64,000 nucleotides of DNA, from contig NC_091975.1 in assembly GCF_036711975.1 (NCBI RefSeq), positions 9,736,501 to 9,800,500 on the forward strand, in the 5' to 3' direction. Positions within the stretch are counted from its first letter, which is position 1, and each line of letters opens with the position of its first letter. A model generated the notes under the pieces. The model was not told the origin of the DNA. It worked only from the letters and a program-made list of their open reading frames with translations, and did not search any database. This stretch comes from Onthophagus taurus (taxonomy: Eukaryota; Arthropoda; Insecta; Coleoptera; Scarabaeidae). Made by a program: the position numbers and the translations under genes. Positions 1,956-62,464 of this stretch are shown in pieces.

Positions 1956-1959
1956 TCTT

Positions 1960-7689: not shown

Positions 7690-10600
7690 TCCTCTACTCG
7701 CATCTGAAAGAAAAGTGAAACAGAGCAATATTGTTAAGAATAAAATTTGCTACCTACAATTTTTGCTAATATGCTCTGTTTTCCGATTGTTACCATTAAT
7801 AACTTGAAAAAGCTACAAATTCATCCAATTTTCATATTTTTCTTGATATCTATGCATTTGAAAGCAAAAGTGCAAGAGAGCAATATTGTTAAGAACAAAA
7901 TTTGCAATAACTATCGTGCCAAAAGTTTTTTTGCAACATGTTCCGTTTCCCCAGTGTTACCATTAACAACTTGAAAAGGCAACAAATTCATCCAATTTTC
8001 ATATTTTCGTATTTTTCAGGATATTGACGCATCTGAAAGCAAAGGTGAAAGAGAGCAATTTTGCTAAGAGTAGAATTAGTTATAACTTTCGTTCTAAAAG
8101 ATTTTTTATAATATGCTCCGTTTCCTGAGTGTTACCATTAATACTTGAAAAAGCAACAATTTTCATATTTTTGTACTTTTCTTGATATCTATGCATTTGA
8201 GAGCAAAAGTGCAAGAGAGCAATATTGTTAAGAACAAAATTTGCAATAACTATTGTGCCAAAAGTTTTTTTGCAACATGTTCCGTTTCCCCAGTGTTACC
8301 ATTAACAACTTGAAAAGGCAACAAATTCATCCAATTTTCATATTTTCGTATTTTTCAGGATATTGACGCATCTGAAAGCAAAGGTGAAAGAGAGCAATTT
8401 TGCTAAGAGTAGAATTAGTTATAACTTTCGTTCTAAAAGATTTTTTATAATATGCTCCGTTTCCTGAGTGTTACCATTAATACTTGAAAAAGCAACAATT
8501 TTCATATTTTTGTACTTTTCTTGATATCTATGCATTTGAGAGCAAAAGTGCAAGAGAGCAATATTGTTAAGAACAAAATTTGCAATAACTATTGTGCCAA
8601 AAGTTTTTTTGCAACATGTTCCGTTTCCCCAGTGTTACCATTAACAACTTGAAAAGGCAACAAATTCATCCAATTTTCATATTTTCGTATTTTTCAGGAT
8701 ATTGACGCATCTGAAAGCAAAGGTGAAAGAGAGCAATTTTGCTAAGAGTAGAATTAGTTATAACTTTCGTTCTAAAAGATTTTTTATAATATGCTCCGTT
8801 TCCTGAGTGTTACCATTAATACTTGAAAAAGCAACAATTTTCATATTTTTGTACTTTTCTTGATATCTATGCATTTGAGAGCAAAAGTGCAAGAGAGCAA
8901 TATTGTTAAGAACAAAATTTGCAATAACTATTGTGCCAAAAGTTTTTTTGCAACATGTTCCGTTTCCCCAGTGTTACCATTAACAACTTGAAAAGGCAAC
9001 AAATTCATCCAATTTTCATATTTTCGTATTTTTCAGGATATTGACGCATCTGAAAGCGAATGTGAAATAGAGCAATATTGCTAAGAGTAGAATTAGTTAT
9101 AACTTTCGTTCTAAAAGATTTTTTATAATATGTTCCGTTTCCCGAGTGTTACCATTAATACTTGAAAAAGTATCAATTTTCATATTTTTGTACTTTTCTT
9201 GATATCTATGCATTTGAGAGCAAAAGTGCAAGAGAGCAATATTGTTAAGAACAAAATTTGCAATAACTATTGTATCAAAAGTTTTTTTGCAACATGTTCC
9301 GTTTCCCCAGTGTTACCATTAACAACTTTAAAAGGCAACAAATTCATTCAATTTTCATATTTTCGTATTTTTCAGGATATTGACGCATCTGCAAACAAAA
9401 GTGAAAGAGAGCAATATTGCTAAGAGTAGAATTAGTTACAACTTTCGTTCTAAAAGATTTTTTATAATATGCTCCGTTTCCTGAGTGTTACCATTAATAC
9501 TTGAAAAAGCATTAATTTTCATATTTTTGTACTTTTCTTGATATCTATGCATTTGAGAGCAAAAGTGCAAGAGAGCAATATTGTTAAGAATAAAATTTGC
9601 AATAACTATTGCGCCAAAAATTTTTTTGTAACATGTTCCGTTTCCCCAGTGTTACCACTAACAACTTGAAAAGGCAACAAATTCATCCAATTTTCATATT
9701 TTCGTATTTTTCAGGATATTGACGCATCTGAAAGCTAAGGTGAAAGAGAGCAATTTTGCTAAGAGTAGAATTAGTCACAACTTTCGTTCTAAAAGATTTT
9801 TTATAATATGCTCGGTTTCCTGAGTGTCACCATTAATACTTGAAAAAGCATCAATTTTCATATTTGTGTGTTTTTCTTGATATCTATGCATTTGAGAGCA
9901 AAAGTGTAAGAGAGCAATATTATTAAGAACAAAATTTGCAATAACTATTGTGCCAAAAGTTTTTTTGCAACATGTTCCGTTTCCCCAGTGTTACCATCAA
10001 CAACTTGAAAAGGTAACAAATTCAACCAATTTTCATATTTTCGCATTTTTCAGGATATTGACGCATCTGAAAGCAAAAGTGAAAGAGAGCAATATTGCTA
10101 AGAGTAGAATTAGTTACAACTTTCGTTCTAAAAGATTTTTTATAATATGCTTCGTTTCCTGAGTGTTACCATTAATACTTGAAAAAGCATCAATTTTCAT
10201 ATTTTTGTACTTTTCTTGATATCTATGCATTTGAGAGCAAAAGTGCAAGAGAGCAATATTGTTAAGAACAAAATTTGCAATAACTATTGTGCCAAAAGTT
10301 TTTTTGCAACATGTTCCGTTTCCCCAGTGTTACCATTAACAACTTGAAAAGACAACAAATTCATCCAATTTTCATATTTTCGTATTTTTCAGGATATTGA
10401 CGCATCTGAAAGCAAAGGTGAAAGAGAGCAATTTTGCTAAGAGTAGAATTAGTTATAACTTTCGTTCTAAAAGATTTTTTATAATATGCTCCGTTTCCTG
10501 AGTGTTACCATTAATACTTGAAAAAGCAACAATTTTCATATTTTTGTACTTTTCTTGATATCTATGCATTTGAGAGCAAAAGTGCAAGAGAGCAATATTG

Positions 10601-11665
10601 TTAACAACAAAATTTGCAATAACTATTGTATCAAAAGTGCTCCGTTTCCCCAGTGTTACCATTAACAACTTGAAAAGGCAACAAATTCATCCAATTTTCA
10701 TATTTTCGTATTTTTCAGGATATTGACGCATCTGAAAGCAAAGGTGAAAGAGAGCAATATTGCTAAGAGTAGAATTAGTTACAACTTTCGTTCTAAAAGA
10801 TTTTTTATAATATGCTCCGTTTCCTGAGTGTTACCATTAATACTTGAAAAAGCATCAATTTTCATATTTCTGTACTTTTCTTGATATCTATGCATTTGAG
10901 AGCAAAAGTGCAAGAGAGAATATTGTTAAGAACAAAATTTGCAATAACTATTGTACCAAAAGTTTTTTTGCAACATGTTCCGTTTCCCCAGTGTTACCAT
11001 TAACAACTTGAAAAGGCAACAAATTCATCCAATTTTCATATTTTTCAGGATATTGACGCATCTGAAAGCAAAGGTGAAAGAGAGCAATATTGCTAAGAGT
11101 AGAATTAGTTACAACTTTCGTTCTAAAAGATTTTTTATAATATGCTCCGTTTCCTGAGTGTTACCATTAATACTTGAAAAAGCATCCATTTTCATATTTT
11201 TGTACTTTTCTTGATATCTATGCATTTGAGAGCAAAAGTGCAAGGGAGCAATATTGTTAAGAACAAAATTTGCAATAACTATTGTGCAAAAAGTTTTTTT
11301 GTAATATGCTCCGTTTCCCCAGTGTTACCATTAACAACTTAAAAAGGCAACAAATTCATCCAATTTTCATATTTTTCAGGATATTGACGCATCTGAAAGC
11401 AAAAGTGAAAGAGAGCAATATTGCTAAGAGTAGAATTAGTTACAACTTTCGTTCCAAAAGTTTTTTTTGTAATATGCTCCGTTTTCCGATTGTTGCCATT
11501 AACAACTTGAAAAAGCTACAAATTCATCCAATTTTGATATTTTTCTTGATATCTATGCATTTGAGAGCAAAAGGGCAATATTATTAAGAAAAAAATTTGC
11601 AATAACTATTGTGCCAAAAGTTTTTTTGCAACATGCCCCATCCAATTGCCGAGTGTTACCATTAA
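7690..11665. repeat. Satellite B: 339-bp dimeric tandem array
   Basis: About 23 monomers of 164-175 bp arranged as alternating A and B types, giving a 339-bp dimer. The anchor CTTGATATCTATGCATTTGA falls at 8181, 8520, 8859, 9198, 9537, 9876, 10215 and 10554, exactly 339 bp apart each time. Later spacings are 326 (a deletion near 10640) and 330. Monomer A has GTTCCGTTTCCCCAGTGTTA and B has GCTCCGTTTCCTGAGTGTTA, so the two share an ancestor. Edge copies are diverged. Reading frames in it are repeats of one another and not genes. Unrelated in sequence to satellite A. Confidence 0.95.
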
Positions 11666-24200: not shown

Positions 24201-27200
24201 GTCACATGGAGTGAGATCAGGAGATTTCGGTGGCCAAAAGTGGACTTCATTTCCCCTGCGACCTATCTAGCGTTGAGGAAGGGCTGCATTCAAAAAGCCT
24301 CGTACATGAAGGTGCCAATGGGGCGGAGCTCTGTCCTGTTGGAAAATGAAGTCCTGCGAATCTTCCATAACTTGAGGAAATAGCCATTCTTCCAACATGG
24401 TTGTTCCAATTACAGATCTTTCCGCAAAAAAAATGGTCCATAAACCTTTGCACGAGATACGGCACAGAACACGTTTGTTAAATGTGGATTTTGCAAACCC
24501 CATATGCGAACATTATGTCTTTTCCACTAAGGTGGAAAGTCGCTTCATCACTAAAAATGATACGCTGCAGAAACGCGTCATCCTCCATCATTCCTAGCAC
24601 ATAACTACAAAATTCGAAATGCTTCTCTTTGTCATTATGGTTGAGAGCCTGTACAAGTTGTAATCGGTAAGGCTTGTACAGCAAACGCCGCCTCAGAACT
24701 TTCCAGACCGTGATGACTGGGATATTCCAAGTTCTCTACTACCTCTATTGGTAGACTTTGTTGGACTGCGAACAAAACTTTCTTCAATACGTCTGACATC
24801 ATCCTCTGATACACGTGGTCGACCTGTTATAAACCGACCAATTTATTTTTTAATTAATTTCATTTCATTTTCTATTTTTTACGCTGACAAGCGGTAATAT
24901 GATATCGCCTAGTCGTACGTGATTGTCCGCTTGTTTTCAAATTGTAAAACAGAATGTAAGTTGTTCCCAACGGAAAAACATCAAATAAAAGAAGTTCGTC
25001 AAGGAAGCTTTTGGTTTAACTTGCAACCCCTCTTCTTCTTCCCAGTAAGAACCCTTGGTTCGCAACAGACCTGTGCTTTTCCCTTTACACACACTTCCAG
25101 TTCGTAGAAATTGCGTAAACCAACGCTTAATGCTTTTTCTAATTGGTGGTTCGATACCGAATTTTGTACGAAATGCCCGCTGCACTACAATTTGTGACTC
25201 ACTTCTTGTGAACTCAAGAACGCAGAAAACCTTGTGCTCCACGGTAGCCATCTCACTCACTTTTGACGGAGACGTACATATTTATTGTTATAAGACAAAA
25301 AGATGAATAATAAAATTATGTTTATTTGTCGCTATGGTGCGACATACCGCAATCGCATTCTTTTTTACATAGTGTTTTTACAGAGAGGAAACGCCCATTT
25401 AACATTTATAATGTATTGCAAAAAAACTTTGAAATTTCCTCTTTCCATTGGTATAATAATTGTTCATTTTGGATCTGTACTTTAATAAATATTCATCTTT
25501 AAAAATGGGTCCATCATTTATAATAACCCTGTATATTAATTTTATACACACTCAAATAAATAGAAACCACACAAACAAATCTAGATATTTTTAGCTCCTC
25601 ACATTGTTATATTTTTGTTTAGTTAGAGGTAATATAATACAGTAATTCGCACAATTTGGTAATCACTACATCATAAACCACAACACATGCGCAACTGGTT
25701 CTAAAACACCACACATACTTCTTCAGTTCATTAAAAGTTCCGTTACGAACCTATCGAACTCTAGTAATTTTGAGTTTTTATAAGCTAAAATAACAAAGGG
25801 TTTTTTAACAATGCAAACAAGTAAGTGGCCATTTTTTCTCAACACTTAATAATAATTAATTTATACAGTGCGCGGCAAAATTATGGAACATATTCAATAA
25901 ATTGATAACAAATTTTTTTTTGCAAAAATGCCGAAACGGGTCAATTTTGGTTAATCATAACACACATTATGACACCATATTCACTTCCTGATAATCATTT
26001 TTTTATGAGTTATGACGTCATCGAAATTTTTTTTAAATGGCACCATATGCATTTGTTTACAAAATCTGAAAGTATATATTTCTCTGCGACTAACGATGTA
26101 AATATCGATATGGGTTTTTTATTCTCTATTAAAAAACACTAATAATTTAAGTTTTAATGTGCAAGGTTTTAAGTTTTAATATTTAAAGTTATTTAATGTC
26201 CGTAGAATATGAATTATGTTATAAAAAAGAAATAAATTCTGATTCTAATCATTTAATCAATTGTTCGAAATGCCCTCCACCCACTTCTTGACAATAAGCA
26301 AACCTATTCATACATTCTTTCAAAGTATTATAAATAAATTGCGGACTAATATTACGAATTTCAGCGCTAATACAATTTTTTAATGCGTCTACATTGAGTG
26401 GTTTCTCAGCGTACACTTTTGATTTTAGATAACCCCATAGAAAAAAATCAAGGGGTATAAGATCTGGGGATCTGGGGGGCCATTCTATCGGCCCCCGTCT
26501 GCCAATCCACCGCTCAGGGAAACTATTATTCAGAAATTCACGAACAGGATGTGCAACGTGCGGAAGTGCACCATCCTGCTGAAACCAAATATTGTCGTCC
26601 AGTAAGTTGGGGTTATTATTATTTGGGAATGCTTCTAAAAGGACAGGCATCAGTTCATTCCTCAAAAACTCCAGATATCGTTGACCTGTCAGAATTTGTT
26701 CAAAGAAGAAAGGGCCAATGATTTTATTGTGAATTATGCCTGCCCATACATTCACTTTTTGAGGGTATTGGGTATGTACCTCGCTTATCCAATGAGGATT
26801 TTCGTTACTCCAGTATCTGCAATTTTGTCGCTTTACTGTGCCATTCAGGCAAAATGTAGCTTCATCCGAAAATAAAACGTTGTAAATAAAGAGTGGATTA
26901 CGGTCACATCGATTCTGCATAATTTCACAGAATTCCATGCGGCGATCTGTGTCATCTTCATTGAGTTCTTGCACTAACTGCACTTTGTAGGGATGGTACC
27001 TCTCTGCTCGTAGCACACGTAGTACAGATCGCTGAGAAACTTGATGATCCGCTGCAATTTGTCTCGAATTACTATGGGGATCATCTTCAACAGCTAACAA
27101 AATATTAAGTTTCACATTTTCGTTGATTTTAGGACGTCCAGCATGTGCAATGTGCGTAACATGTCCAGTTTCTCTAAATTTCTTGTCAATTTTGCTAACT

Positions 27201-30200
27201 GTTGATCTACTAATAACTCTGTCAGGGTACTTTGCATTAAACAAATTGTATACCTCTTGTTGTGTTCGGGTTTCATCTCCACATCCAATAAGAATTAAAA
27301 TTTCTATGCGTTGGGTTTCACTTAAATGAGCCATAATTATTTTAAAATAAATACGTAACAACAAATGCTCAAAAATAAAAACAAAACAGTAACAAATATT
27401 GAACAAAACTGGACTAATGAACACAGAACACGGCAAAAAATAACAACAAATAACAATCTCAATCAGAATATAACGCAAAATAACTAATACAAAACTAAAC
27501 AACATAAAACAGAAAAAAAATACAAACAAACAATTACAACACAGAAAACAATGCAAAAATACAAGAATTAATTGCTATAAAAATTGTTTCAATTCAATTA
27601 AACACTCACTAAACTAATTTTGACGTTTTTGAATAGACATTATTAAAACCAAACAAAGCGTTTCCATGGTTACCCATGGGTAATGCTATTTTTACGTTCA
27701 GAAAAAAAATAAAATTTGTACCTTTAAAGCTAATTTTCTCAAAATTTTCCTTATATAACCCATATCGATATTTACATCGTTAGTCGCAGAGAAATATATA
27801 CTTTCAGATTTTGTAAACAAATGCATATGGTGCCATTTAAAAAAAATGTCGATGACGTCATAACTCATAAAAAAATGATTATCAGGAAGTGAATATGGTG
27901 TCATAATGTGTGTTATGATTAACCAAAATTGACCCTTTCGGCATTTTTGCAAAAAAAAATTTGTTATCAATTTATTGAATATGTTCCATAATTTTGCCGC
28001 GCACTGTATAAACAAAAATTAGAAATAACTATCCCTTAAGACTTTTAATTTTACTTGTTTTTTTTAAATCAATTCTTTTACAATTTCTTAAATTTTTATT
28101 TGGCCTTGAAATTCGTAATTAATCTTTATCAAGAAATTGAAATCCGAGCTGTTTCCATGTAATGGTAAATAAACCAAAACATAATATTTGGTTATAATCA
28201 ATTACTCTTTTAGAATACCTTAGGAAGGCAAAAAGTTACATTAAAGGGTACATTAAAAAATAAATAATATAAAAAAGCCCAAGTTTTTTTATTTATTTTT
28301 CGTCTAAAATTAAAAGAACCAAAAATGACTAGCCTTAAGTAAGCTAAATTCACAAAAACGAACCACACCTTTATCTTGGATCATTTATTTTGATGATTTT
28401 ATTGATCAAAATCTAGAAACAACCTTTCTACTTACCAATTGCACTAATTTGTTGATTACTTGGTTTAACTGAAGCAGACATCAATGAATTCGAAGTGGAA
28501 GATATCAAAACTGTCGTGGGATTATTCAATTGTTGATTTTGTCCATAAGGGGTGGTATTTTGCAACCGAAAATTGGTTGCTAAACTTTGATAGAGATCGG
28601 GCGGGGCTTGGGCGGCTTGAGGGGGGTGAGGTTGCGTTTGCAAATAAAGGCTCTGGGCCGAATAGTGACTCGATGCCGCGTTTTGTCCGAGTCCATAAGG
28701 GTATTGGGAGAATTGTGACGTCCGTTGACCGCCCATTTGGTCCATCGGGAACCCGCCGTAAAGGTTAGGTTGAAGTTGTTGGGTGGAATTATATAATACA
28801 TTTGGGGGAGATGGAATTGCGGACATTCCAAATTGGGTACTTCCACCTAAAGAGGCCTATTAAGAAAAATTAAACGATTTTATTTGTATTTAAAATTTAA
28901 AAAAATATTACTAACCTGATAACCAAGATGTTGATTGGTCGTATATTGTTGTGGTGGTTGATTTAACCCAATATTAGGTCCAATAACCGGTTGGATTGGA
29001 GGTGAAGATAAAGGTGGCATCGTAATAATTCCGGAATGCGTTTGATGCCCTCCACCAACGATATTTTGTCCGGTTGTTCCTGGAACCTGCTGCGTGGGTT
29101 TAACCTAAAACATTTCCTTTAAAAACGAACACCACATCACCACGCAACGTTTACCTTGCATACATTTGTCGTGTTATTGGCCGTATTTGGGTTCGGCGAA
29201 GGACTGTAACCTTCGTGCGGATCTTCGACGGCATCTTGGGTTTTGCTGAAAGCGCTTGAAGGATCGAGACTGTTCGGATCAGGACCAAAACTTGTCGAAA
29301 ACGTTTCCTCCTGGCTAACACTACTATGTTCTATCACCGGCGACATCGTATTTATTGTATTATCCCAAACTTTTTTCACCGATGCTATTTTAAAATTTAA
29401 ATCGGCCGTGGAATGGGACATTGTACTATTGCTGCTTGTTATGGTATGCATCGAACGGGGTAAAGAAATATTTTTCGACGCTTTATCGTCGGTTAATTGA
29501 GAAATTTCCGAATCGAAAAAGTCGAGTTTCATATCGGATGTATCCTCTTTATTAAAAAGTTGCATTTGAATATCGGGTTGCTTTTCGGATTTATTTAAAA
29601 GATCCGTTACCGGTTTATTAAACGTTGAGATTACGGGGGGATCCATCGGGGAGGTTTCTTCGATTTTTGTGGTGGCTCGTGATTTCTCATTGTTACGATT
29701 TCGAACACCGGGAGTCGATTTAAAGTTTGTATTTTCGAAGATTATTGTGTTTACTGGGGGTGTACTACCATCTAGCACGGATTTATCTGGTTGAATTTGC
29801 GTTTTACCAATTATCTAAAAACAATTTTTTTTAATTAAATTTTAAAATACATTGTAAAAACCAAGGACAGTAGAATCTATAGTAGAAACCACGAGAGGTG
29901 GCAGTAAATCATCGTTTTCCGCTCTTACAAATGCCATACGTAGTAAATTAAAATTCACAAACCGCTAGAGAGTAATATGTGTTAGAAAGAGATAGCATTA
30001 GTTTAATAGTAAAATAAACTGCCTAAGTCTGACGTCACAGAAAAGGGCGGAGCTTCTTTTAATCGCCATAAAAATGTTATTTAGTTTATTTTATTTTAAG
30101 GGAAGGTTTTCAATGTCGAGTTAAATCTGTTAGGTACACAACTCATGGATAAACTTGCCTAACAGATAACCTCACTGAAGCGTTTATCCAGCAACTTTCT

Positions 30201-44400: not shown

Positions 44401-47400
44401 CTTGATCTTGTTATTACTAATTCTACCGATGTATATCAAATTTATCTTTGTAGTGATCCGTTAGTTTCTGACGACAGTGCGCACTCCACTCTTAAGTTTT
44501 CATGGTGCCGCTTTCTGTTTTAGAAAAGCTTGGTTTCCTGAATTAAATTTAACGAAATTAACTGGGAATCCGAACTCGCTGGTCGTGATATCAACGACGC
44601 TGTTCAAATTTTTTCTAACTATGCCAATACTGCTATACGTGAATTTGTCTCTTTAAAACGCAAAACTACCAAGGGTTTTCCTACTTGGGTTTCATATAAT
44701 ACCATTAAAGTAATTCGAGAGAAAACGACTTGAGTATTTCACTTTTTCAATTCTAAGGAGTCGTGCAAAGTATGTTAGAAGAGCTGAAAGTAATATCCAA
44801 TCTGAATTAAAGGTGTTTTGGGCTTTTAGTAAGTCTAAGAAGCGTACGGATGTCATTTCTATTTCCTCATTGTTCGCTGATTTCTTTTATTCGGTTTTTG
44901 TTGATCCTGCTCCAATTCAGCAGAATGTAGATTGTGTGGAAACGGATGCCCTTCCTTTGAATCAGATGCAGTTTGATCAGTGATGGGCGCTGGGTAAATA
45001 CCCGGCGGGTAGGTATTTCTAAATTGCGTGTATAAAAGGCGTATAAAAGTGATACCAGTAAAAATGTATCAGATTCCAAAAAAAATGAAGAGGAAGACTT
45101 TTTTCCAACAAACAATCAACAATCAAAGACGTATTATCATCAGATAAATCTGTTGTAATAATAATAATATGTCACAATAGGGATATTTTACAAATTACAA
45201 AGTTAATAAGGGATATATAGTTTAAGTGGTAACCTCATTATTTGCGTTCCGTGCCATATGTGTCAAAGGTGCCCGCATCAGAACGTTGGTCCTAGCGATC
45301 GGCACCTGGTATGTATTGCTATTCCTGATACCAGGTCTGGGTATAATGAATCCAACTCGAACAAGAAGTGAAGGTGAGTCGACAGTACAATTGACGATGT
45401 TCGATAAAAATTTTCTACTAGCATCTTCTCTACGATTGTTCAAAGATGAAAAATTAAATTCTTCCAATAACGCAACGTAGTCAACACCTCGCTCCGGATA
45501 CTGACCAACTGTTTTAAAATGTAAGTATTTTAAGAACCTCTTCTGCACTCTCTCGAGCATGAGCTGGTGAGAAGTATAATAAGGATACCAAACCATAGAA
45601 CCATATTCCAATTTTGTACGAACAAACGCATAGAAAAGTACTGTTAATGCAGCTACGTTGTTAAATTTTTTACATTGCCTGATGATGAAACTCAATGCAC
45701 CAGAGGCTGACTTTACTATAGCGTTAACATGGTCTTTGAATTGCAACTGGTCATCGAATAAGACACCCAAATCTCGAATAGCGCGTTCTCTGCGTATTGC
45801 TTCAACTCCCACACTATAATTAAACCTTAATGGGTTATTACACCTTGTGTAAGATACGACAACGCATTTTGCTATGTTAAGGTCAATTCCATTCTGTATT
45901 GACCAGGAACTGATAATGTTCAGATTGCGCTGTAAGATAACACAGTCTTCAGGGGATGTTACACGAGCGAATATCTTTAGATCATCGGCGTAAGCAAGCA
46001 CATTACAATCAAGTCGTCGTAATAGATCGTTCAGATAAACATTGAATAGAAGGGGAGCCAGGATGGAACCCTGTGGAACACCAGAGCCAGCAGTGAACGT
46101 ATTAGATTTAAAACCGTTGTAGCTCACATAGCAAAGTCTATTGGAGAGGTAAGATGAAATTAAATCCACGAAATCATTGGTAAATCCAAGACTGCAGAGT
46201 TTAGAAAGAAGTATTCCATGATCTAATCTATCAAATGCCTTTGTAAAATCTGTGTAAATTATGTCAACTTGTTCCCGTTTATCCATGTGCTCGCTGATGA
46301 ACTGCGTTACCTCTGCTAAGTTAGTCATAGTTGAACGACCAGTCATAAATCCGTGCTAATGATCAGATATGTATGGGCGAACATAGTAACTCATTCTGGA
46401 GTATAGCAACATTTCGAAGACTTTCGAGCAATTGTTCAAAATGCTAATAGGTCGGTAATTTTCAATACTAAATCTGTCTCCCTTCTTAAAAACCGGCGTT
46501 ATCCGAGTTTTTTTCCATACTGCAGGAAAAGTTTTAGTTTTTAAGCATAAATCTTTAATAATAAAACTTGGGAGACCGTCGTCGCCAGCGGTAGAGTCAT
46601 TCTTTAGTCGTTTCATACAGATTTCTACCTCCTCGATAGAAAATGGAGTAATGTAGAAGGGTCCAGGCCAGTTGAGTTGCTGGTTACAGTTACCGATAGT
46701 TGTAAGTCCAGGATTGAAGACTTCAGAAAACAAGACAGAGAAGGCCTGCACTATTTCAAGGGGATCAGAGATTTCAGAGCCAGCAAAGGTCATGCAGCCT
46801 GGAATACGCGAATTACCATGTTTCTGATTCACGTAACGCCAGAAATTTTTGGGGTCGGTCAATATACAATTTTCGGTATTCACGAGATAAGCCTGATAAT
46901 CAGAAACTATTGCATCCTTGGATAAACGACGCAACCTAACATATTCATCGTAATATGATAGCTGTTTAGAACTCTTCCACTTCTTAAAGTAGTGCTCCTT
47001 CATATTCAACATACGCTTAGTGCTTCCAGTAAACCATAGAGGAAATTTCGACGGCGATAAGCAGTATTTGGGTACATGTTTTTCAATAACGTTATAGTTA
47101 TTATAGTAAAATTTTTCCACAGCAATATTAATATCCGAGCACATCAATATATCAGACCAGACAACACGACCAATATCGTCATACAATCCACGAAAGTCCG
47201 GAAGTTAAAACGAAGATTGTTATTTGATGGAAACACTAGAGCATCTTCAATATTCTGAGATTTAATGGAGATGTTCAGTGCAGGATGATTAAAGTTTTCA
47301 GTAAGTAAAGGTGCAACGTCACGCTCTGCAGTTACTTCGCAGTTAAAGTTAGTAAATACTAAGTCGAGTATCCTACCTCTAGAGTTGTAGATATGGTTAT

Positions 47401-51806: not shown

Positions 51807-52207
51807 TTTTGCACTAGTTAGAAGTGATGATTAAGGAAATTAAGGTAATTTTTTAACAATTACATTCTTTATTGATATAAATAATCTCACAGCGTTCATA
51901 TAAAAATGTGTATTTCGTTTTAATTGATTAACCGGAGGAGAAAATTAACTAAAAATAAATAAATATCACTTACCATCTAAGGAAATCAATAACATAAACG
52001 AATAATTAACGTAAATGAAGAAAAAATCAAAAATACATAACCTACAAAAAAAATGACAGATAATTTATTTGAGGTTATGTTTTTTTAAACTGATTTAATA
52101 ACTATTTTTTAATCTATTTAAAGTTGTTAAATGTAGAGATCACTATAAAAAAATTAGTTTTGTTTTTTTTCATAATAATTAAATAAAAAACGTTTTTTTT
52201 AAGTGTG
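51807..52207. other. Intergenic sequence and RMND5 3' UTR
   Basis: AT-rich; TTTATT/AATAAA-type strings near 52170-52190 may serve RMND5 polyadenylation on the minus strand. Nothing else is seen. Confidence 0.4.
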
Positions 52208-53555
52208 TTAAAAGAAGATTAATCTAGCATCGGTTGGACTTTGTTCCATCGGGCAGTAGGGACATTTCATTCTATAACAAATTACGAAAAAACAATCAAT
52301 TTTGTTTATAATTTAATCTTTTACTCACTTATTTCCACTGCAAAGCTTATTTAAAGCATCTCGGGATATAACATGACCACAAATTAACCTCATGGGAGGG
52401 TTATTTTCCGTCGATTGTTGCCTTAAAATCGGGCAAGCAAACATTGAGTGATATCTACTATCATTTCCCAAATCAATTTCAATCTAAAACAAATTCGTAT
52501 AACGCGAGTATTAAATTTTATAACCTCACTCACAGGTAGTTCATCTTTTCCATTCCAAATAGCTGCTACCTGCCTTTCTTTCATGATATGTTTAATATTT
52601 AACAATGCAGGAATTGCTTTACACCCAGCATTAACACAAGTTGATAAAGGACTATTAACGCTAACCCCTAATAAAGAACAAGCATCTTTTGTAAAAATAT
52701 CATAAACATCCATCCACCTATCCGGATCTAACAAACAACTATATGGAGATCTGTTAATATCGTTGCGAACATACAACATCATTCCCATTAAAGTTTGAAT
52801 TTCTTTTTCGTGTTTATAAGCGAACGGTTTAAAAAAAGTCCGGGCATAATTAATCGCTTCGGTTTCATTAGCAGATCCGTTTCTTAAAATTTCAATGTAT
52901 TTTAAACGATGTAATTGGAATTCTAGTGATGAATTTTGTGCCTCTAAGTTTTCGCGGTGAGTCACGGCCCAATCTAAAGCCGGTTGTAAATTTTTCTCTC
53001 GTAAACTTTCTAAAATGTGATTTAACTCCGTGAACGGTTCATTTTCGTTTAATTCCACTTCAACGCTTGATTCTTTCGCGAGCTCTTGCGCCACGTCTTT
53101 CATTCCTTGCCGATAAAAATGTTGGCAAATGATTTTATTTAATAATTCGATTTTTTGCGGAGTGTTAAATGAATCCTCTTTAGTGGCGCCGGCGAAATCT
53201 TGAATGAAATGCTTATCGATGACTTTTCCAACTCTCGAAACTGTCGCGTGGAGATCTTTGTGGTCGGCGGATAACATTGAAATCGTTTCTTTTACTTTTA
53301 TCGTAGCTTGTTTTAACGTGTCTACTTGAATCGGTGTTAATTCGTGATTTGATGGTGCTACGAAGAAAAAAGTCTTTGTTTGAACAATAACAATGACCTC
53401 AAGGTATAAAGAAACTTACCATTGTCAATTTGATGTTTTAAACTCTGTATGTATTGAACTAGCTCTCCCAAAGTTCTGTTGGCGTGTTCCCCGATACTCT
53501 CGAATTTCGACAATATCTTGTCGACTTCTTTTTCGACGGCACAACAAGCTTCCAT
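52208..53555 (-). CDS. Rmnd5: RMND5 (GID2), E3 ligase subunit of the CTLH/GID complex
   Basis: Catalytic RING-type subunit of the CTLH (GID) ubiquitin ligase, which pairs with MAEA/GID9. Exons: 53420-53555, 52534-53357, 52329-52483, 52208-52271; 1179 bp, 392 residues, against about 391 in vertebrate RMND5A. The N-terminus ([18 protein letters not shown]) matches the family start. The CTLH/CRA helices follow ([37 protein letters not shown]). The C-terminal degenerate RING shows [24 protein letters not shown] and [16 protein letters not shown]. The final residues IFF fit the family. Its 5' flank is shared with the divergent aldo-keto reductase and is tandemly amplified. Confidence 0.95.
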
Positions 53556-53951
53556 CGTATTTTTTAACGTTTATTATGTACTTTTCATCAACAACTGTCA
53601 ATCAACTAAACGTTTTTGACGTTTACCTCGAAGAAATCTGTAATTATGTTTTTAATAAATCACACCAAGAGATGGCGCCGTTTTTTTGAGTTATTACGTT
53701 AAGAATTTTTAATAATTCGTTTTTATCGCATTATTTAATAAAGGTTATAAGATAACGAAATTCCATTAAAACGTTTTAAATAAGAAAATGATAACGTTAA
53801 TAAAAAAATTTGTTTTGATTCTTAACCGATTTAAATTTTGACATCTGTCATTTCCTTCGTTTGAGATAAAAACATCACTTGAGATAACGAAAGTATTTAA
53901 TTTAAGGAATTATCTCGTATTAAGCGGTTCTAATCAACATTAACATCAAGA

Positions 53952-54023
53952 ATGTCTTCGGTTCCTTCAGTTTCTCTAAATAACGGGTTTTCAATTCCCG
54001 TTTTTGGGTTAGGAACTTGGAAG
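53952..54023 (+). CDS. Reductase alternative first exon, copy 1
   Basis: 24 codons ending in FGLGTWK with intact ATG and donor (AAG|GTAATT). Adjacent to the RMND5 promoter, so this copy probably keeps the ancestral divergent arrangement. It could splice to the acceptor at 55626 and yield a full protein. Use is unproven. Confidence 0.6.
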
Positions 54024-54472
54024 GTAATTTCTAACCTCACTTTTTTTTAAAATTTAATTTATCTTCCTATTCATCGTATTTTTTAACGTTTATTATGTAC
54101 GTTTCATCAACAACTTCAATCAACTTAACGATTTTAACATTTATTTCGAAGAAATCTGTAATTACATATGTTTTTAATAAATCACACCAAAAGGTGGCGC
54201 CGCTTTTTTTGAGTTATTACGTTAAGAATTTTTAATAATTCGTTTTTATGGCATTATTTAATAAAGGTTATAAGATAAGGAAATTCCATTAAAACGTTTT
54301 AAATAGGAAAGTGATAACGTTAATAAAAATTAAGTTTGATTCTTAACCAATTTAAGTTTTGACATCTGTCATTTCTCTCGTTTAAGATAAAAACATCACT
54401 TGAGATAACGAAAGTATTTAATTTAAAGAATCATCTCGTATTAAGCGGTTTTAATCAACATTAACACGAAGA

Positions 54473-54544
54473 ATGTCTTCGGTTCCTTCAGTTTCTCTAA
54501 ATAACGGGTTTTCAATCCCCGTCTTTGGGTTAGGAACTTGGAAG
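54473..54544 (+). CDS. Reductase alternative first exon, copy 2
   Basis: Same length, ATG and donor as copy 1 and the same encoded residues, with only silent differences (for example ATTCCC to ATCCCC, GTTTTT to GTCTTT). It can splice in frame to 55626. Confidence 0.6.
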
Positions 54545-54990
54545 GTAATTTCTAACCTCCCTTTTTTAAAAAATTTAATTTATCTTCGTATTCATCGTAT
54601 TTTTTAACGTTTATTATGTATGTTTCATCAACAACTTCAATCAATTTAACGTTTTTAACGTTTATTTCGAAGGAATCTGTAATTATGTTTTTAATAAATC
54701 ACACCAAAAGATGGCGCCGCTTTTTTGAGTTATTACGTTAAGAATTTTGAATAATTCGTTTTTATCGCATTATTTAATAAAGGTTATAAGATAAGGAAAT
54801 TCCATTAAAACGTTTTAAATAGGAAAGTGATAACGTTAATAAAAAATTAGTTTTGATTCTTAACCAATTTAAATTTTGACATCTGTCATTTCTCTCGTTT
54901 AAGATAAAAACATCATTGAGGAAAGAAAGTATTTAATTTAAGGAATTATTATTTATTATTAAGCGGTTGTAATCAACATTAACACGAAAA

Positions 54991-55062
54991 ATATCTTCGG
55001 TTACTTCAGTTTCTCTAAATAACGGGTTTTCAATCCCCGTGTTTGGGTTAGGAACTTGGAAG
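54991..55062 (+). pseudogene. Reductase first exon copy 3, start codon lost
   Basis: The start is ATA instead of ATG, and a Pro codon is changed (GTTCCT to GTTACT). The remaining frame and donor AAG|GTAATT are intact. It cannot initiate a normal protein here but could still act as a non-coding leader. Confidence 0.75.
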
Positions 55063-55498
55063 GTAATTTCTAACCTCACTTTTTTTTTAAATTTAATTTA
55101 TCTTCGTATTTTTTAACGTTTATTATGTACGTTTCATCAACAACTTCAATCAACTTAACATTTTTAACGTTTATTTCGAAGAAATCTGTAATTATGTTTT
55201 TAATAAATCACACCAAAAGATGGCGCCGCTTTTTTTGAATTATTACGTTAAGAATTTTTAATAATTCCTTTTTATCGCATTATTTAATAAAGGTTATAAG
55301 ATAAGGAAATTCCATTAAAACGTTTTAAATAGGAAAGTGATAACGTTAATAAAAAATTAGTTTTGATTCTAAACCAATTTAAATTTTGAATCTGTCATTT
55401 CTCTCGTTTAAGATAAAAACATCACTTGAGATAACGAAAGTATTTAATTTAAGGAATTATCTCGTATTAAGCAGTTCTAATCAACATTAACACGAAGA

Positions 55499-56567
55499 AT
55501 GTCTTCGGTTCCTTCAGTTTCTTTAAGTAACGGGTTTTCAATCCCCATTTTTGGGTTAGGAACTTGGAAGGTAATTTCTAACCTCACTTTTTTAAAAAAT
55601 TTAATTTATGTTATTTTAAATTTAGTCGAAGCCGGGCGAAGTGACTCAAGCTGTTAAAGATGCAATCGATATAGGTTATCGCCACATTGATTGTGCCCAT
55701 GTTTATGGTAATGAGAAAGAGGTTGGAGCTGCGATAAAAGATAAAATAGATGAAGGTGTTATTAACCGCGATGATTTATTTGTTACAAGCAAATTATGGA
55801 ACACCTTTCATCGCGTTGATCTAGTTGAAAAAGCGATGAAAGAAACTTTAAATAATTTGGGGTTAGATTACATCGATTTGTATTTAATTCATTGGCCTTT
55901 GGGTTATAAAGAAGATGGGGAATTATTTCCCACCGACGAACAAGGAAAAATCCAATTCAGCAACGTTGATTACGTGGATACATGGAAAGCAATGGAAAAA
56001 TTAGTCGAAAAGGAATACACAAGATCAATTGGGTTATCAAACTTTAATAAACGCCAAATCGAACGTGTTTTAGACTCAAGCACAATTAAGCCGGTTAATT
56101 TACAAATTGAATGCCACCCTTATTTGAATCAAAAAAAATTGATTGAATTTTGTAAGTCAAATGGTATTACGGTCACTGCTTATAGCCCATTGGGAAGCCC
56201 AGATAGGCCGTGGGCCAAACCGGACGATCCACAGCTTTTAGAAGATGAAAAATTAAACTTTTTGTCAGAAAAATATAAAAAAACTACCGCTCAAATTTTG
56301 TTGAAATACCAAGTTCAACGAGGTGTTATTACAATTCCTAAATCGGTGAATAAAGGGAGAATCGCCGAGAATTTTAACATCTTTGATTTTGAATTGGACC
56401 CAAAAGATTTGGAGTATATTAATGGGTTCGATTGCGGTGGGAGGTTTTGTCCAATGACAGCGTAAGTTTTGATTTATTTATTTTTTTTTAATTTAAAATA
56501 AAATTTTTGATATTATTGTAGCGGTGTTGGTCATCCACATCATCCGTTTGAAAATGATGAGTATTGA
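55499..56567 (+). CDS. Aldo-keto reductase 1 (AKR1-like)
   Basis: NADPH-dependent cytosolic carbonyl reductase of the (beta/alpha)8 aldo-keto reductase family. Exons: 55499-55570 (nearest first exon), 55626-56461, 56522-56567; 954 bp, 317 residues. Catalytic tetrad Asp46 and Tyr51 (YRHIDCAHVY), Lys80 (TSKLWN), His113 (LIHWPLG). IGLSNFN and the cofactor-phosphate loop IPKSVNKGRIAEN are present; the C-terminus ends HPFENDEY. Three more first exons lie upstream at 53952, 54473 and 54991. This first exon differs at two residues from copies 1-2 (Asn to Ser, Val to Ile). The substrate is unknown; aldose or aldehyde reductase type. Paralogue of the gene at 61431-62464, and convergent with it. Confidence 0.93.
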
Positions 56568-57220
56568 TGGAAAATTTTCTTAATCGTTTGAGTTTAAAAT
56601 ATATAAATCTCATCCTAAATCCATCGATATTTTTTGTAATTTATGTTCTATGAGCAATCAAATAAGAATTTATATATACATATTTTTTAATGAGGTGGAC
56701 GTTTTTGTAATTTTAGCCTTGTTATGTGTGGAATTCAACGTGATTAACATAAAAGCATTTTAAGGATAAGAAAATGTTATCAATGTTTTTTATTAAAGAG
56801 GTTATTGTTATTAAAATATGGCCTTAATACTGATTTCAGTTGATCCAATCATTTATTACGTGTTAAATAAAAGAGGGTAATGAAAAACTTCTTAGAATTG
56901 ATAAAGAAATCTAAGGCCTTCGAACTGTAACATTTATTTCTAAATTGAAGGTTTATGGGATTTTTTAAAAAATAAATACAAGAAAAGCGTAAATTCCACA
57001 TACAACAAGTATCCACCAGTCCATACACCAATTACCTTAGATTATTCCCCCACCAGTCTTAATTCCCCAGACGCGTATGTTCTCGCAATATACTGTAGTA
57101 CTTTAATGTCGTATTCGTGCCATTCAATTTTTGGATATTTATTAAAAATGAGTACAAAGCATTCGAGATTTGATTTAAAATGGGGTCCACAAAAATACAG
57201 CTTTGTACGGGACGTCCGAG
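56568..57220. other. 3' flank of reductase 1
   Basis: AT-rich, including the likely reductase 3' UTR. No further gene is seen; a small minus-strand frame near 57042-57275 resembles nothing known. Confidence 0.4.
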
Positions 57221-57228
57221 TCCTAGAG

Positions 57229-57338
57229 CAGCGGTTCCCAACCTTTTTGACTTGCAGAGCCCTTTTTACAATCAATTTTTGTGGCGGAACCCCAGAAAAG
57301 CCCCAAGGGCTCCGCGGAGCACAGGTTGAAAACCACTG
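57229..57338. mobile_element. 110-bp hAT-type MITE
   Basis: Begins CAGCGGTTCCCAACCTTTTT and ends AGGTTGAAAACCACTG (complement CAGTGGTTTTCAACCT), an imperfect inverted repeat. An exact 8-bp target duplication TCCTAGAG is at 57221-57228 and 57339-57346. Internal GC-rich hairpin (AAGCCCCAAGGGCTCCGCGG). Non-coding. Confidence 0.9.
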
Positions 57339-57354
57339 TCCTAGAGTATTGAGT

Positions 57355-57596
57355 GTTCGAGCGTACTATTAAACAAAGTGCGTGAAAGTCCTAAGATAAG
57401 TGCTTCAAAAATTGCTAACGAATTAAATTCTGTATCTCAAAGAACAGTAAGTGCACAAACGATTCGAAATGTTCTTCACAAAAATGGATATCATCGCCGC
57501 ATACCTAGGAAGAAGCCTTTTATATCACAAAAGAAACGTATAAATCAAATTATACATACATTCAAACGAGAAAATTTGTTCCCAACAGTAAAATAT
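57355..57596 (+). pseudogene. Tc1 transposase N-terminal relic
   Basis: Plus frame reads ISASKIANELNSVSQRTVSA followed by QTIRNVLHKNGYHRRIPRKK and PFISQKKR. This is the second helix-turn-helix and linker region of Tc1-like transposases. The catalytic domain is absent; the sequence runs directly into the 306-bp repeat family. Confidence 0.75.
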
Positions 57597-57684: not shown

Positions 57685-59362
57685 CAGGGTGTTTCATGAA
57701 GTTCTCCCGGCACTAATGGAGCATGTTGTTTAAGTGATTTGTAATAAAAAAGTTCATATGAACATATGTCCGATTCACTTCACGAGTTATATGAATTTGA
57801 AAATAATATTTAAAAATTATGGCGTTACGGCCCAGCGCGGGGCTCAAAGGATAAATGTGCTATGACTGCATTAGTAAAATAAAGTACTTATTCCCATAAT
57901 TGCGTCATGTTTGACCAAAAAAAAAAGCATTGAGCAAGACAATTCACTTTATTTATTGAGCTACACTTATGCATTTAAAAATAAAGTAATTGCGATAATG
58001 TTACTTTTTATTATAATTTGAAAAAATAATTTATTAATTTTAAACATTTTCGAAAATTCCACCTCCTACTTCAATACACTTATCTGCGTTGCATTTTTTA
58101 TCTTTGCACGGTGCTCCTTTATTTGCGTTGCAGCGTCAAAAATTCTTTGGATTAAAGCCTCACGTGTGTCTACTTTTTCTTGATATACTAAATCTTTCAT
58201 CCAACCCCACATGTTATAATCCAGAGGATTGAGATCTGGAGATCTGGCTGGCCAAACGTGCGGTCCACCTCGACCGATCCAGCGGTTAGGATAACGTTCA
58301 TTTAGATGATCGGTGACTCTACGGTAAAAATGAGAAGGAGCTCCGTCGTGTTGTAAATACATTCTTAATCGTCTTGCCAGAGGTACATGCCACAGTAAAC
58401 GCGGAAGTTTTTCTTCCAAAAATTGCAAGTACCTTTGTCCGGTAAGACGATCTTCAAAAATAAACGGTCCTATAAGTTGATCATACAACATTCCGCACCA
58501 CAGATTAATGCTAAATCTGCTTTGAAAATTACTTTCTAGAGTAGCATGAGGGTTAATGTCCGACCATTTATGCAAATTATGGATGTTATTTATGCCATCT
58601 CGAGTAAATTGTGACTCATCCGTAAATAAAATGTAGCGGTATAAGTTCCGATTATTATTTAACCACTGACAAAATGCCAAACGCCTAGGGAAGTCTTCTG
58701 GCTTCAGATGTTGAACACGCTGTAGATGATACGGATGCAGCAGATTTCTTTTTAATGTTCTCCATACCCTGGTATTGGGAATCCCTAAACGTACGGATAT
58801 CCGTCGCGTACTAATGCAGGCATTGCGCTCGACAATGTCAAGGATGTTCTCTTCCTCTGCAACATTCTGTTGTGTTGCTCGTTCATACTGCATATGAACG
58901 CTCGGAAGTAAACCAGTTTCTCGGAGAGCTTGGAAGGTACTACTAAAAGTCTTCGGCGATGGAACACGCCGATTTGGAAAACGTCGTCGATATTCAATTG
59001 AAGCTGCAGTAGCGTTTCCATCACAATTTCCCAGTACAAAAACCATATCAGCATACTCAACAGTCGTAAACTTAAACGGCATTGTACGCAAATAAAACTC
59101 AAATAATTTTAGATTAAACGGCAAGCTTGTCAAATTTGACAGTAAGGTAAATAAGTACTTTATTTTACTAATGCAGTCATAGCACACTTACCCTTTGAGC
59201 ACCGCGCTGGGCCGTAACGCCATAATTTTTAAATATTATTTTCAAATTCAGATAACTCAATAAGTGAAGTGAATCGGACATATGTTCATATGAACTTTTT
59301 TATTACAAATCACCCAAACAACATGCTCCATTAGTGCCGGGAGAACGTCATGAAACACCCTG
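57685..59362 (-). mobile_element. Complete DD41D Tc1/mariner element within the satellite
   Basis: TA at 57683-57684 and 59363-59364. Ends CAGGGTGTTTCATGA(A/C)GTTC and complement. Inverted repeats of about 208-213 bp (57685-57892 and 59150-59362) differ at some positions, more than in the element at 25866-28006, so this copy is older or its arms diverged. The transposase frame is open. Confidence 0.92.
58066..59082 (-). CDS. DD41D Tc1/mariner transposase, open frame
   Basis: 338 residues from MPFKFTTVEYADM (59082); the open frame extends upstream through element leader sequence, which I exclude. The N-terminal DNA-binding part includes EYRRRFPNRRVPSPKTF. The catalytic core has ILFTDESQFTRDG, MYLQHDGAPSHF and WPARSPDLNPLDYNMWGWMK, with 41 residues between the second and third catalytic Asp. 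The helix-turn-helix lacks the usual GRP linker seen in the other copy. It is a different subfamily from the transposase at 26249-27334. It is open and may be functional. Confidence 0.9.
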   Translation of the reverse strand: MPFKFTTVEYADMVFVLGNCDGNATAASIEYRRRFPNRRVPSPKTFSSTFQALRETGLLPSVHMQYERATQQNVAEEENILDIVERNACISTRRISVRLGIPNTRVWRTLKRNLLHPYHLQRVQHLKPEDFPRRLAFCQWLNNNRNLYRYILFTDESQFTRDGINNIHNLHKWSDINPHATLESNFQSRFSINLWCGMLYDQLIGPFIFEDRLTGQRYLQFLEEKLPRLLWHVPLARRLRMYLQHDGAPSHFYRRVTDHLNERYPNRWIGRGGPHVWPARSPDLNPLDYNMWGWMKDLVYQEKVDTREALIQRIFDAATQIKEHRAKIKNATQISVLK

Positions 59363-59364
59363 TA

Positions 59365-61215
59365 TAACCCTCTGCCAATAGTATCTAATCTTGTGGGAGG
59401 AATAGCTAGTCTTCTAGCAGCAGTCTAGTCATTTTAAAGCAGTAAGTAGTGTTCCGCAAGCTGTATCTAGTCTTCTGGTAGCAGTATCTCGTCAGCTGCA
59501 GTAGGTAGTTTCTGTAGACAGTATCTAGTATTCTATTAAAAGTATATATTCCTTTGTCAGTAGTATCTAGTGTTGTAGCAGCGGTAGCTAATTGATTACA
59601 AGCAGTGGATTGTCTTTCTCAAGCAGTATCCAGTCTTCTAAAAGCAGTATCTAGTTGCCAACAGTATATACTTCCTCTTCTAGTAGTATCTACTCTGTGG
59701 TGGCAGCATGTAGTCTTCTGCAAGTAGTATCAAATCGTGTTCAAGCAGTAAGTAGTCTTCTACAAGCTGTATCTCGCTTTATAGTAGCCATATCTCGTCG
59801 CCTGCAGTATTTAGTTTCTGTAGGCAGTATCCAGTATTCTATTAGAAGTGTATATTCCTTTGTCAGTAGTATCTAGTGTTGTAGCAGCGGTAGCTAATTG
59901 ATTACAAGCAGTGGATTGTCTTTCTCAAGCAGTATCCAGTCTTCTAAACGCAGTATCTAGTCGCCAACAGTATATATAGTCCTCTTCCTGTAGTATCTAT
60001 TCTGTGGTAGCAGTACGTAGTCTTCTGCAAGTAGTATCAAATCGTCTTCAAGTAGTAAGTAGTCTTCTGCAAGCTGTATCTAGCTTTATAGTAGACATAT
60101 CTCGTCGTCTGCAGTATGTAGTTTCTGTAGGCAGTATCCAGTATTCTATTAGAAGTGTATATTCCTTTGTAAGTAGTATCTAGTGTTGTAGCAGCGGTAG
60201 CTAATTGATTACAAGCAGTGGATTGTCTTTTTCAAGCAGTATCCAGTCTTCTAAACGCAGTATCTAGTCGCCAACAGTATATATAGTCCTCTTCCTGTAG
60301 TATCTATTCTGTGGTAGCAGTACGTAGTCTTCTGCAAGTAGTATCAAATCGTCTTCAAGCAGTAAGTAGTCTTCTGCAAGCTGTATCTAGCTTTATAGTA
60401 GCCATATCTCGTCGCCTGCAGTATGTAGTTTCTGTAGGCAGTATCCAGTATTCTATTAGAAGTGTATATTCCTTTGTCAGTAGCATCTAGTGTTGTAGCA
60501 GCGGTAGCTAATTGATTACAAGCAGTGGATTGTCTTTCTCAAACAGTATCCAGTCTTCTAAAAGCAGTATCTAGTCGCCAACAGTATATACTCCTCTTCT
60601 AGTAGTATCTACTCTGTGGTGGCAGCACGTAGTCTTCTGCAAGTAGTATCAAATCGTCTTCAAGCAGTAAGTAGTCTTCTGCAAGCTGTATCTAGCTTTA
60701 TAGTAGCCATATCTCGTCGCCTGCAGTATGTAGTTTCTGTAGGCAGTATCCAGTATTCTATTAGAAGTGTATATTCCTTTGTCAGTAGCATCTAGTGTTG
60801 TAGCAGCGGTAGCTAATTGATTACAAGCAGTGGATTGTCTTTTTCAAGCAGTATCCAGTCTTTTAAAAACAGTATCTAGTAGCCAACAGTATATACTCCT
60901 CTTCTAGTAGTATCTTCTCTGTGGTGGCAGCACGAAGTCTTCTGCAAGTAGTATTAAATCGTCTTCAAGCAGTAAGTAGTCTTCTGCAAGCTGTATCTAT
61001 AGCCTTATAGTAGTAATATCTCGTCGCCTGCAGTATGTAGTTTCTGTAGGCAGTATTTAGAAGTATATACTTCTTTGCCAGTAATATCAAGCAGTGGATT
61101 CTTTTTTGCAAGCACCATACAGTCTTCTAGAAGCAGTATCTAGTCGTCAACAGTATATAGTCCTTTACAAGTAAGCATCAAAGTCTTCACCAGTCTTTAA
61201 GCAGTAAGTAATACT
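59365..61215 (+). repeat. 306-bp hierarchical tandem array
   Basis: Marker TGTTGTAGCAGCGGTAGC falls at 59571, 59877, 60184, 60491 and 60796 (spacing 305-307). Each unit divides into about 15 subunits of 18-21 bp of the form GCAGTATCTAGTCTTCTGCAA, each distinct and in fixed order. Edges on both sides are diverged. Non-coding; it is stop-rich because of the TAG in the subunit. Confidence 0.93.
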
Positions 61216-61430: not shown

Positions 61431-62464
61431 TTAATATTTAGCGTTAAACGGATACAATTTAGCATCTTTCGACTCACTAAAAGGGCAAGTTCTCAAATTA
61501 ATATCCATATTATTCAATTCCCCCATATCTTCCTTGCTAATTTCGAAATCCCAAATATTATAGTTCTCGATAATCCTACTTTTCGTAACCGATTTAGGAA
61601 TAACGATATGCCCGCGTTGAACTTGATATTTAATTAAAATTTGGGCCACACTTTTCCCGTATTTCTTAGCCATGCTTTCAAATTTGCTATCTTCCAACAA
61701 CTTTTTGTCCCCGCTTCCCAAGGGGCTATAAGCGGTTATTGTTATATTTTTCGACCGGCAATAATCACTCAAAGGAAGTTGATTCAAAAACGGTGAGCAT
61801 TCGACTTGATTGGTTTGTGGGACCACTTCCGCGGATTCAAGGAGACGTTCAATTTGGTCTTTGTTGAAATTAGAAATTCCTATGTTTTTAACTAAGCCTT
61901 TTTTGTAAAGTGCCTCCATGGCTTTCCAAGTTGGGACAAAATCGTGGTCAGCAAATTCGATTTTTTTATTTGCGTTTAATGGAAATAATACATCTCCATC
62001 CTAAAAATGAAATTTATTTGTGTTGTGGTTAAAACGAGGTTTAAATTTACCTTAAAAGCAAACGGCCAATGAATTAGATATAAATCTAAATAATCCAATC
62101 CTAAATTTTTTAATGTTACTTTTAAAGCCGGCTCAACGGCTTCCGGGTTATGATAAGTATTCCATAATTTGCTCGTAATAAAAAGATCTTCTCTTTTTAC
62201 GACTCCCTCCGATATTTTCGCAGCAATCCCAGCTCCTACTTCCGGTTCATTTTCGTAAACGTGAGCGCAATCAAGATGTCGATAACCGGCATCGATGGCA
62301 TCTTTCACAGCTTGAGTAACTTTTCCTGGTTCGGACTAAAATTAATTAATTAATTAATATTAATAAAAATCGATTTAAATTCGTTCACTTACTTTCCATG
62401 TTCCTAACCCGAACATTGGAAATTTATTTCCATTATTAAAAGTAATCGTTGGAACGTTAGCCAT
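61431..62464 (-). CDS. Aldo-keto reductase 2 (AKR1-like)
   Basis: NADPH-dependent carbonyl reductase, paralogue of the gene ending at 56567. Exons: 62393-62464, 62051-62335, 61431-62000; 927 bp, 308 residues. The first exon is 72 bp and ends FGLGTWK, as in the other gene, and the first intron has the same position; the catalytic region here has one extra intron (after LIHWPFAFK). Tetrad Asp46 and Tyr51 ([10 protein letters not shown]), Lys80 (TSKLWN), His113 (LIHWP). [12 protein letters not shown] and [13 protein letters not shown] are present. The C-terminus ends KLYPFNAKY. It has a single first exon, unlike its paralogue. Confidence 0.93.

Follow-up and report, generated by a model that had tools for sequence, protein, structure and literature searches.

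The window analyzed here, a stretch of 64,000 nucleotides from the beetle Onthophagus taurus, includes a pair of divergent genes and, reaching from the start of one into the first intron of the other, a fourfold tandem partial duplication (53553-55609) at one locus. The upstream gene, on the minus strand, is presumably RMND5, a name with which the CTLH domain detected in its open frame 52423-53415 (Pfam PF10607, E 9.8e-41) is consistent; the first, 46-aa piece of this gene gave no Pfam match. The downstream gene is predicted to encode an aldose-reductase-like aldo-keto reductase (AKR). In phmmer comparisons with aldose reductase chains, the AKR protein reached a best E value of 2.7e-118 over residues 7-314 of 317, and 169 distinct chains matched at E 0.001 (the best 60 of these 169 are listed). 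The locus comprises the following features:

52423..53555, minus strand: RMND5-like gene with a CTLH domain (start codon and the coding pieces after it)
53553..54071, unstranded: repeat unit 1, adjoining RMND5 (alignment; repeat families D1, D2 and D4)
53952..54023, plus strand: AKR exon 1, copy 1, residues MSSVPSVSLNNGFSIPVFGLGTWK; candidate intron of 1602 nt
54072..54592, unstranded: repeat unit 2 (alignment)
54473..54544, plus strand: AKR exon 1, copy 2, residues as in copy 1; candidate intron of 1081 nt
54593..55103, unstranded: repeat unit 3, ATG of exon 1 lost (alignment)
54991..55062, plus strand: AKR exon 1, copy 3, ATG changed to ATA, and P5T; candidate intron of 563 nt
55104..55609, unstranded: repeat unit 4 (alignment and TRF end)
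55499..55570, plus strand: AKR exon 1, copy 4, N10S and V17I; intron of 55 nt
55626..56461, plus strand: AKR exon 2, single (Pfam PF00248, E 1.1e-51)
56522..56567, plus strand: AKR exon 3, single; coding part, including the stop codon (from the exon joins)

Anatomy of the fourfold array

The alignment places the unit starts at 53553, 54072, 54593 and 55104, with start-to-start spacings of 521/518/508, 523/516/510 or 519/521/509 bp for different parts of the unit (516/510 in the case of the three-copy family). When run with a longer period limit, TRF lists the array at 53553-55609 as 521 bp x 4.0 with 92% matches, whereas the array is absent from the output at a period limit of 500 bp. The spacing of 508-523 bp bears out the four tandem copies of 508-521 bp each given in the preliminary description. 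The pairwise identity of the units, 92.9-95.1% over 505-516 aligned columns, is far above chance. An assembly artefact, in which one real unit would appear fourfold, is very unlikely, given that the copies differ by 4.9-7.1%, that each carries private substitutions and gap columns, and that the unit occurs at a single place in the genome. When searched as DNA against the 290.8-Mb assembly, unit 1 matched at four places, all inside this array (the search skips very common words and is not proof of absence). A dispersed satellite array was rejected on this ground.

Each unit contains the 5' flank of RMND5, the intergenic region, the 72-bp AKR exon 1 with its donor, and most of intron 1; a promoter would, from its position, be located within each unit. 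The RMND5 5' leader had been described as part of every unit. The 5' flank is indeed present throughout, but the RMND5 start codon, in position and frame, belongs to unit 1 only, where it forms the first three bases (53553-53555, minus strand). Units 2-4 are devoid of the RMND5 reading frame and include only its 5' flank; the RMND5-side ATG is kept in units 2 and 3, with a stop after 6 codons, and is lost in unit 4. This arrangement admits a reading in which transcription from extra divergent starts in units 2-4 would proceed back through the array, antisense to the first exons, and into RMND5 with long leaders, so that the array would damp or couple both genes instead of raising AKR expression. 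Every unit has both outward-facing sides, and the 6-codon frame at the RMND5-side ATG of units 2 and 3 would sit in a distal RMND5 transcript; however, both the promoter position inside the unit and transcription are hypothetical, and we consider this scenario quite improbable.

On the AKR side, the 72-bp exon 1 and its GT donor are present in all four units, as previously described: GTAATTTCTAACCTC lies directly 3' of exon 1 in every copy, and the GT with the next 13 bases is the same in all four. The remainder of the gene is single, again as previously noted, with exon 2, exon 3 and the AG acceptor (55624-55625) occurring once each. The repeat ends 16 bp short of exon 2, with unit 4 abutting the unique final 16 bases of intron 1 (55610-55625). 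No exon 2 or exon 3 matches were found between the units, and exon 1 is the only part of the AKR protein that matches in the array (E 1e-3). Because the acceptor was not copied, an upstream unit, if transcribed, would have just exon 2 as a splicing partner when copied acceptors are considered. The notion of one gene with four promoter/first-exon modules therefore stands with respect to the anatomy (four GT donors, one uncopied acceptor), but the promoter part of it is assigned from position.

Three of the four modules, those of copies 1, 2 and 4, start with ATG, in agreement with the earlier count, and their joined frames of 317 residues begin with Met. In copy 3, which has ATA instead, the first ATG in the coding sequence after exon joining lies in another frame, which stays open for 4 codons. 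The differences in this copy are densest at about 54890-55005, just 5' of and around the lost start codon. At the protein level, the suggested diversification was not borne out: the residues of copy 2 are those of copy 1, and copy 4 departs from them only by N10S and V17I, both conservative changes, so that the predicted protein diversity arising from the four first exons is minimal.

Searches for other elements added little. Nothing in 52000-57500 reached the Rfam gathering score, and a bacterial-type promoter scan, the model of which is not meaningful for this genome, returned 10 hits against 10.2 expected. Six terminator-like hairpins were detected in the 52000-57500 region against 0.7 expected, of which four are one GCGCC hairpin recurring in the four units and two are located at the exon 1 start; these were given no weight.

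AKR paralogues and the genomic background

A second AKR gene, convergent with the first, occupies 61431-62464 on the minus strand (start at 62464); it has a single 72-bp exon 1 and a first intron of 57 nt. This intron is similar in length to the 55-nt intron of unit 4, so unit 4 probably represents the original exon 1-exon 2 arrangement. In a control that covered about 1.5 kb on either side of each AKR match, the first-exon residues were identified at five other AKR genes, once in each of the five:

Window paralogue, 61431-62464, minus strand
C11:33.0 Mb
C7:39.9 Mb
C11:23.95 Mb
C7:26.589 Mb, where the first-exon residues run on without an intron

An AKR gene on C5 and the fragments L034 and L039 showed no first-exon match, and the match at C1:41.2 Mb was weak (E 0.25); none of these were counted.

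The presence of a second AKR gene about 5 kb downstream, within the window, could suggest that the array once consisted of whole AKR genes, of which exons 2-3 have since been lost. We rejected this origin, which appears hardly credible: inside the array there is no exon 2 or 3 match, exon 1 alone being recovered at E 1e-3; the same joint, 16 bp ahead of exon 2, recurs at all junctions; and the paralogue is in the opposite orientation and only 50-56% identical over the matched pieces.

To what extent such an array is unusual can be gauged from 18 sampled stretches of 10 kb each (nine spaced 1 Mb apart on C10, two next to the window and seven from other contigs, a sample that is not random). Arrays with a period of at least 100 bp were present in 12 of the 18, for a total of 22 arrays after merging in the 180 kb sampled, certain of them with about two copies only. 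Twelve of the 22 match another stretch, 6 match only at another place in their own stretch, and for 4 the sample contains no other match. The window adds four arrays, of which three match other stretches whereas the focal one does not. This genome readily makes long-period arrays, and an array landing on a promoter would not be surprising; the focal array is nevertheless unlike the satellite-like ones in that it is built of single-locus gene sequence.

Several other repetitive or mobile elements were observed in the window. Tandem arrays at 1958-4937, 7759-11635 and 59437-61056, with periods of 360, 339 and 307 bp, respectively, have relatives at other sampled places, and the last of these also displays an inner 21-bp period. 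Between the two AKR genes, on the minus strand, a 373-aa open frame (58066-59187) looks by eye like a mariner/Tc1-type transposase, and its flanks resemble inverted ends. By the same visual criterion, minus-strand open frames at 26249-27574 and 45222-47204 resemble a transposase and a non-LTR reverse transcriptase, respectively.

Origin of the copies and possible constraint upon them

All three junctions of the array share the joint TTTATCTTC[G/C]TATT, which is found at neither array end. In junctions 1/2 and 2/3, the joint is followed by CATCG; 9 bp present in these two are missing from junction 3/4. Given that CTTC and CATCG of the joint are also adjacent at the RMND5 start, the founding duplication may have reached a few bases into the start of the RMND5 coding sequence, with a short insertion added. 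Divergence among the copies, counted up to about 55603 in unit 4 (as in the selection tests below), is star-like: private columns number 17, 10, 17 and 9 in copies 1-4, against two three-state columns and two columns that split the copies two against two and are adjacent within a T/A run. Such a star tree indicates copies that arose close in time or were homogenized once and then drifted. Together, the single common joint and the star tree point to one partial duplication followed by quick expansion. The divergence per copy, about 1.6-3.4% (between 8 and 17 of 496 columns), would correspond to roughly 5-11 million generations, assuming a rate of 3e-9 per site per generation.

Does the variation among the copies betray selection? 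Exon 1 is as variable as the rest of the unit, with 7 variable columns of 72 compared to 49 of 424 ungapped columns elsewhere (Fisher p 0.84; 14 gap columns were set aside), and stronger constraint on exon 1 than on its flanks was therefore rejected. Measured against the majority sequence, exon 1 has accumulated 4 nonsynonymous changes, one of which is the lost start, and 4 synonymous ones (pN 0.019 versus pS 0.055, p 0.12). The longest run invariant in all four copies, 36 bp across the donor, is not significant (p 0.37-0.38), and the changes per 40 positions are slightly more uneven than in shuffled data (p 0.06). A block of 74 bp, a candidate shared regulatory core, is invariant in units 2, 3 and 4:

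54251-54324, unstranded: 74-bp block, unit 2
54767-54840, unstranded: 74-bp block, unit 3
55277..55350, unstranded: 74-bp block, unit 4

For this subset of copies, the permutation p value is 0.024 uncorrected and about 0.1 when corrected for five subsets; the longest invariant runs in the other four subsets gave p 0.33-0.62. Gene conversion could also account for the block, within which we noticed by eye strings that we take to be GATA-like and NF-kappaB-like. In 20000 neutral simulations, at least 3 of the 4 first exons stayed intact in 54% of the cases; therefore, that copies have stayed open does not speak for function, and neither do these figures show the absence of function. Overall, the block, the uneven changes and the excess of pS over pN lean weakly towards some constraint, and the case for selection keeping the extra copies is not convincing.

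These data bear directly on the possibility of functional amplification, whereby several units would be active promoters that raise or broaden AKR expression through promoter copy number and are kept by selection. The intactness of three of the four first exons and of all four donors would fit this possibility, as would the unchanged block in copies 2-4 and the low pN in exon 1. However, neutral copies would be expected to show such intactness, exon 1 is no less variable than its flanks, copy 3 has lost its start, and the p value of the block fails correction for the five subsets; we accordingly view amplification as conceivable but doubtful. A more specific version, in which units 1, 2 and 4 would be active bidirectional promoters kept by selection on the 74-bp core, with copy number setting the dose of the reductase (and perhaps of RMND5) and the start-less transcripts of unit 3 acting as a decoy, strikes us as improbable.

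We favor a mostly neutral reading of the array. Under this explanation, which as a whole we hold to be moderately probable, a partial tandem duplication would have taken in everything between roughly the start codon of RMND5 and a point 16 bp ahead of exon 2: the RMND5/AKR intergenic region, AKR exon 1 and most of intron 1. The array would then have grown to four units in a short time by unequal exchange. Any transcribed unit would splice to the single exon 2, the acceptor not having been copied. The outcome would be a set of alternative promoter/first-exon modules, of which those of units 1, 2 and 4 would be competent and that of unit 3 start-less, all yielding essentially one enzyme. At present, unit 4 would serve AKR and unit 1 would serve RMND5, as the original gene-proximal halves, and most of the array would be neutral or of small effect.

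Known parallels and significance

The arrangement has known parallels, and the locus is real but modest. By anatomy, the closest known system appears to be PEP1 of Arabis alpina, in which a partial tandem duplication encompasses the first exon along with parts of the promoter and of intron 1 (PMC3527215). Both exon 1 copies of PEP1 are spliced to the same exon 2, resulting in two differentially expressed transcripts, and identical proteins are predicted in one accession (PMC3527215). As in PEP1, tandem exon 1 copies with flanking intron and putative promoter sequence precede single downstream exons. The two copies in this plant gene lie 6.3 kb apart, with little homology upstream of both exons (PMC3527215), whereas here there are four adjacent, near-identical copies, with the intergenic region of divergent genes included in the unit, and transcription of the units is hypothetical.

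Other arrays of 5' modules differ more. In the sDscam genes of chelicerates, tandem 5' cassettes, as a rule with a predicted promoter in front of them, are joined to constant exons; the cassettes generally consist of two or four exons and diversify the protein, and promoter activity was demonstrated with reporters for two cassettes of one gene (PMC4835542). The likeness is in the arrayed modules before common exons, but the module described here has one 72-bp exon and brings almost no diversity. The vertebrate UGT1 and protocadherin loci likewise carry arrayed first exons that have individual promoters and are followed by common exons (PMC1885805; PMC3325998), and these first exons have diverged, adding protein diversity (PMC1885805). 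Unlike in UGT1, protocadherin and sDscam, the first exons of the present array are near-identical and lack the diversification that defines those systems. Promoter duplication in the rDNA spacer concerns ribosomal RNA genes, and is not known to include a protein-coding exon. There, duplicates of the core promoter are found upstream of the transcription unit (PMC1215480). The duplicated promoter, putative in our case, is the common element, and the copying of a protein-coding exon sets the present array apart. A literature search, with most subscription journals outside its coverage, found no report of this locus.

Judging from its sequence, the locus has a structure that would allow it to work as a set of alternative promoter/first-exon modules, and the array could provide a single enzyme gene with several starting points. 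Should the extra units be transcribed, this would be a compact natural case of a promoter and first exon multiplied without the gene; the four near-identical modules are distinguishable by their private bases, and the effect of promoter copy number and order on both divergent genes would be measurable. If they are silent, the array would show how a partial duplication persists when neither of the neighboring genes is broken.
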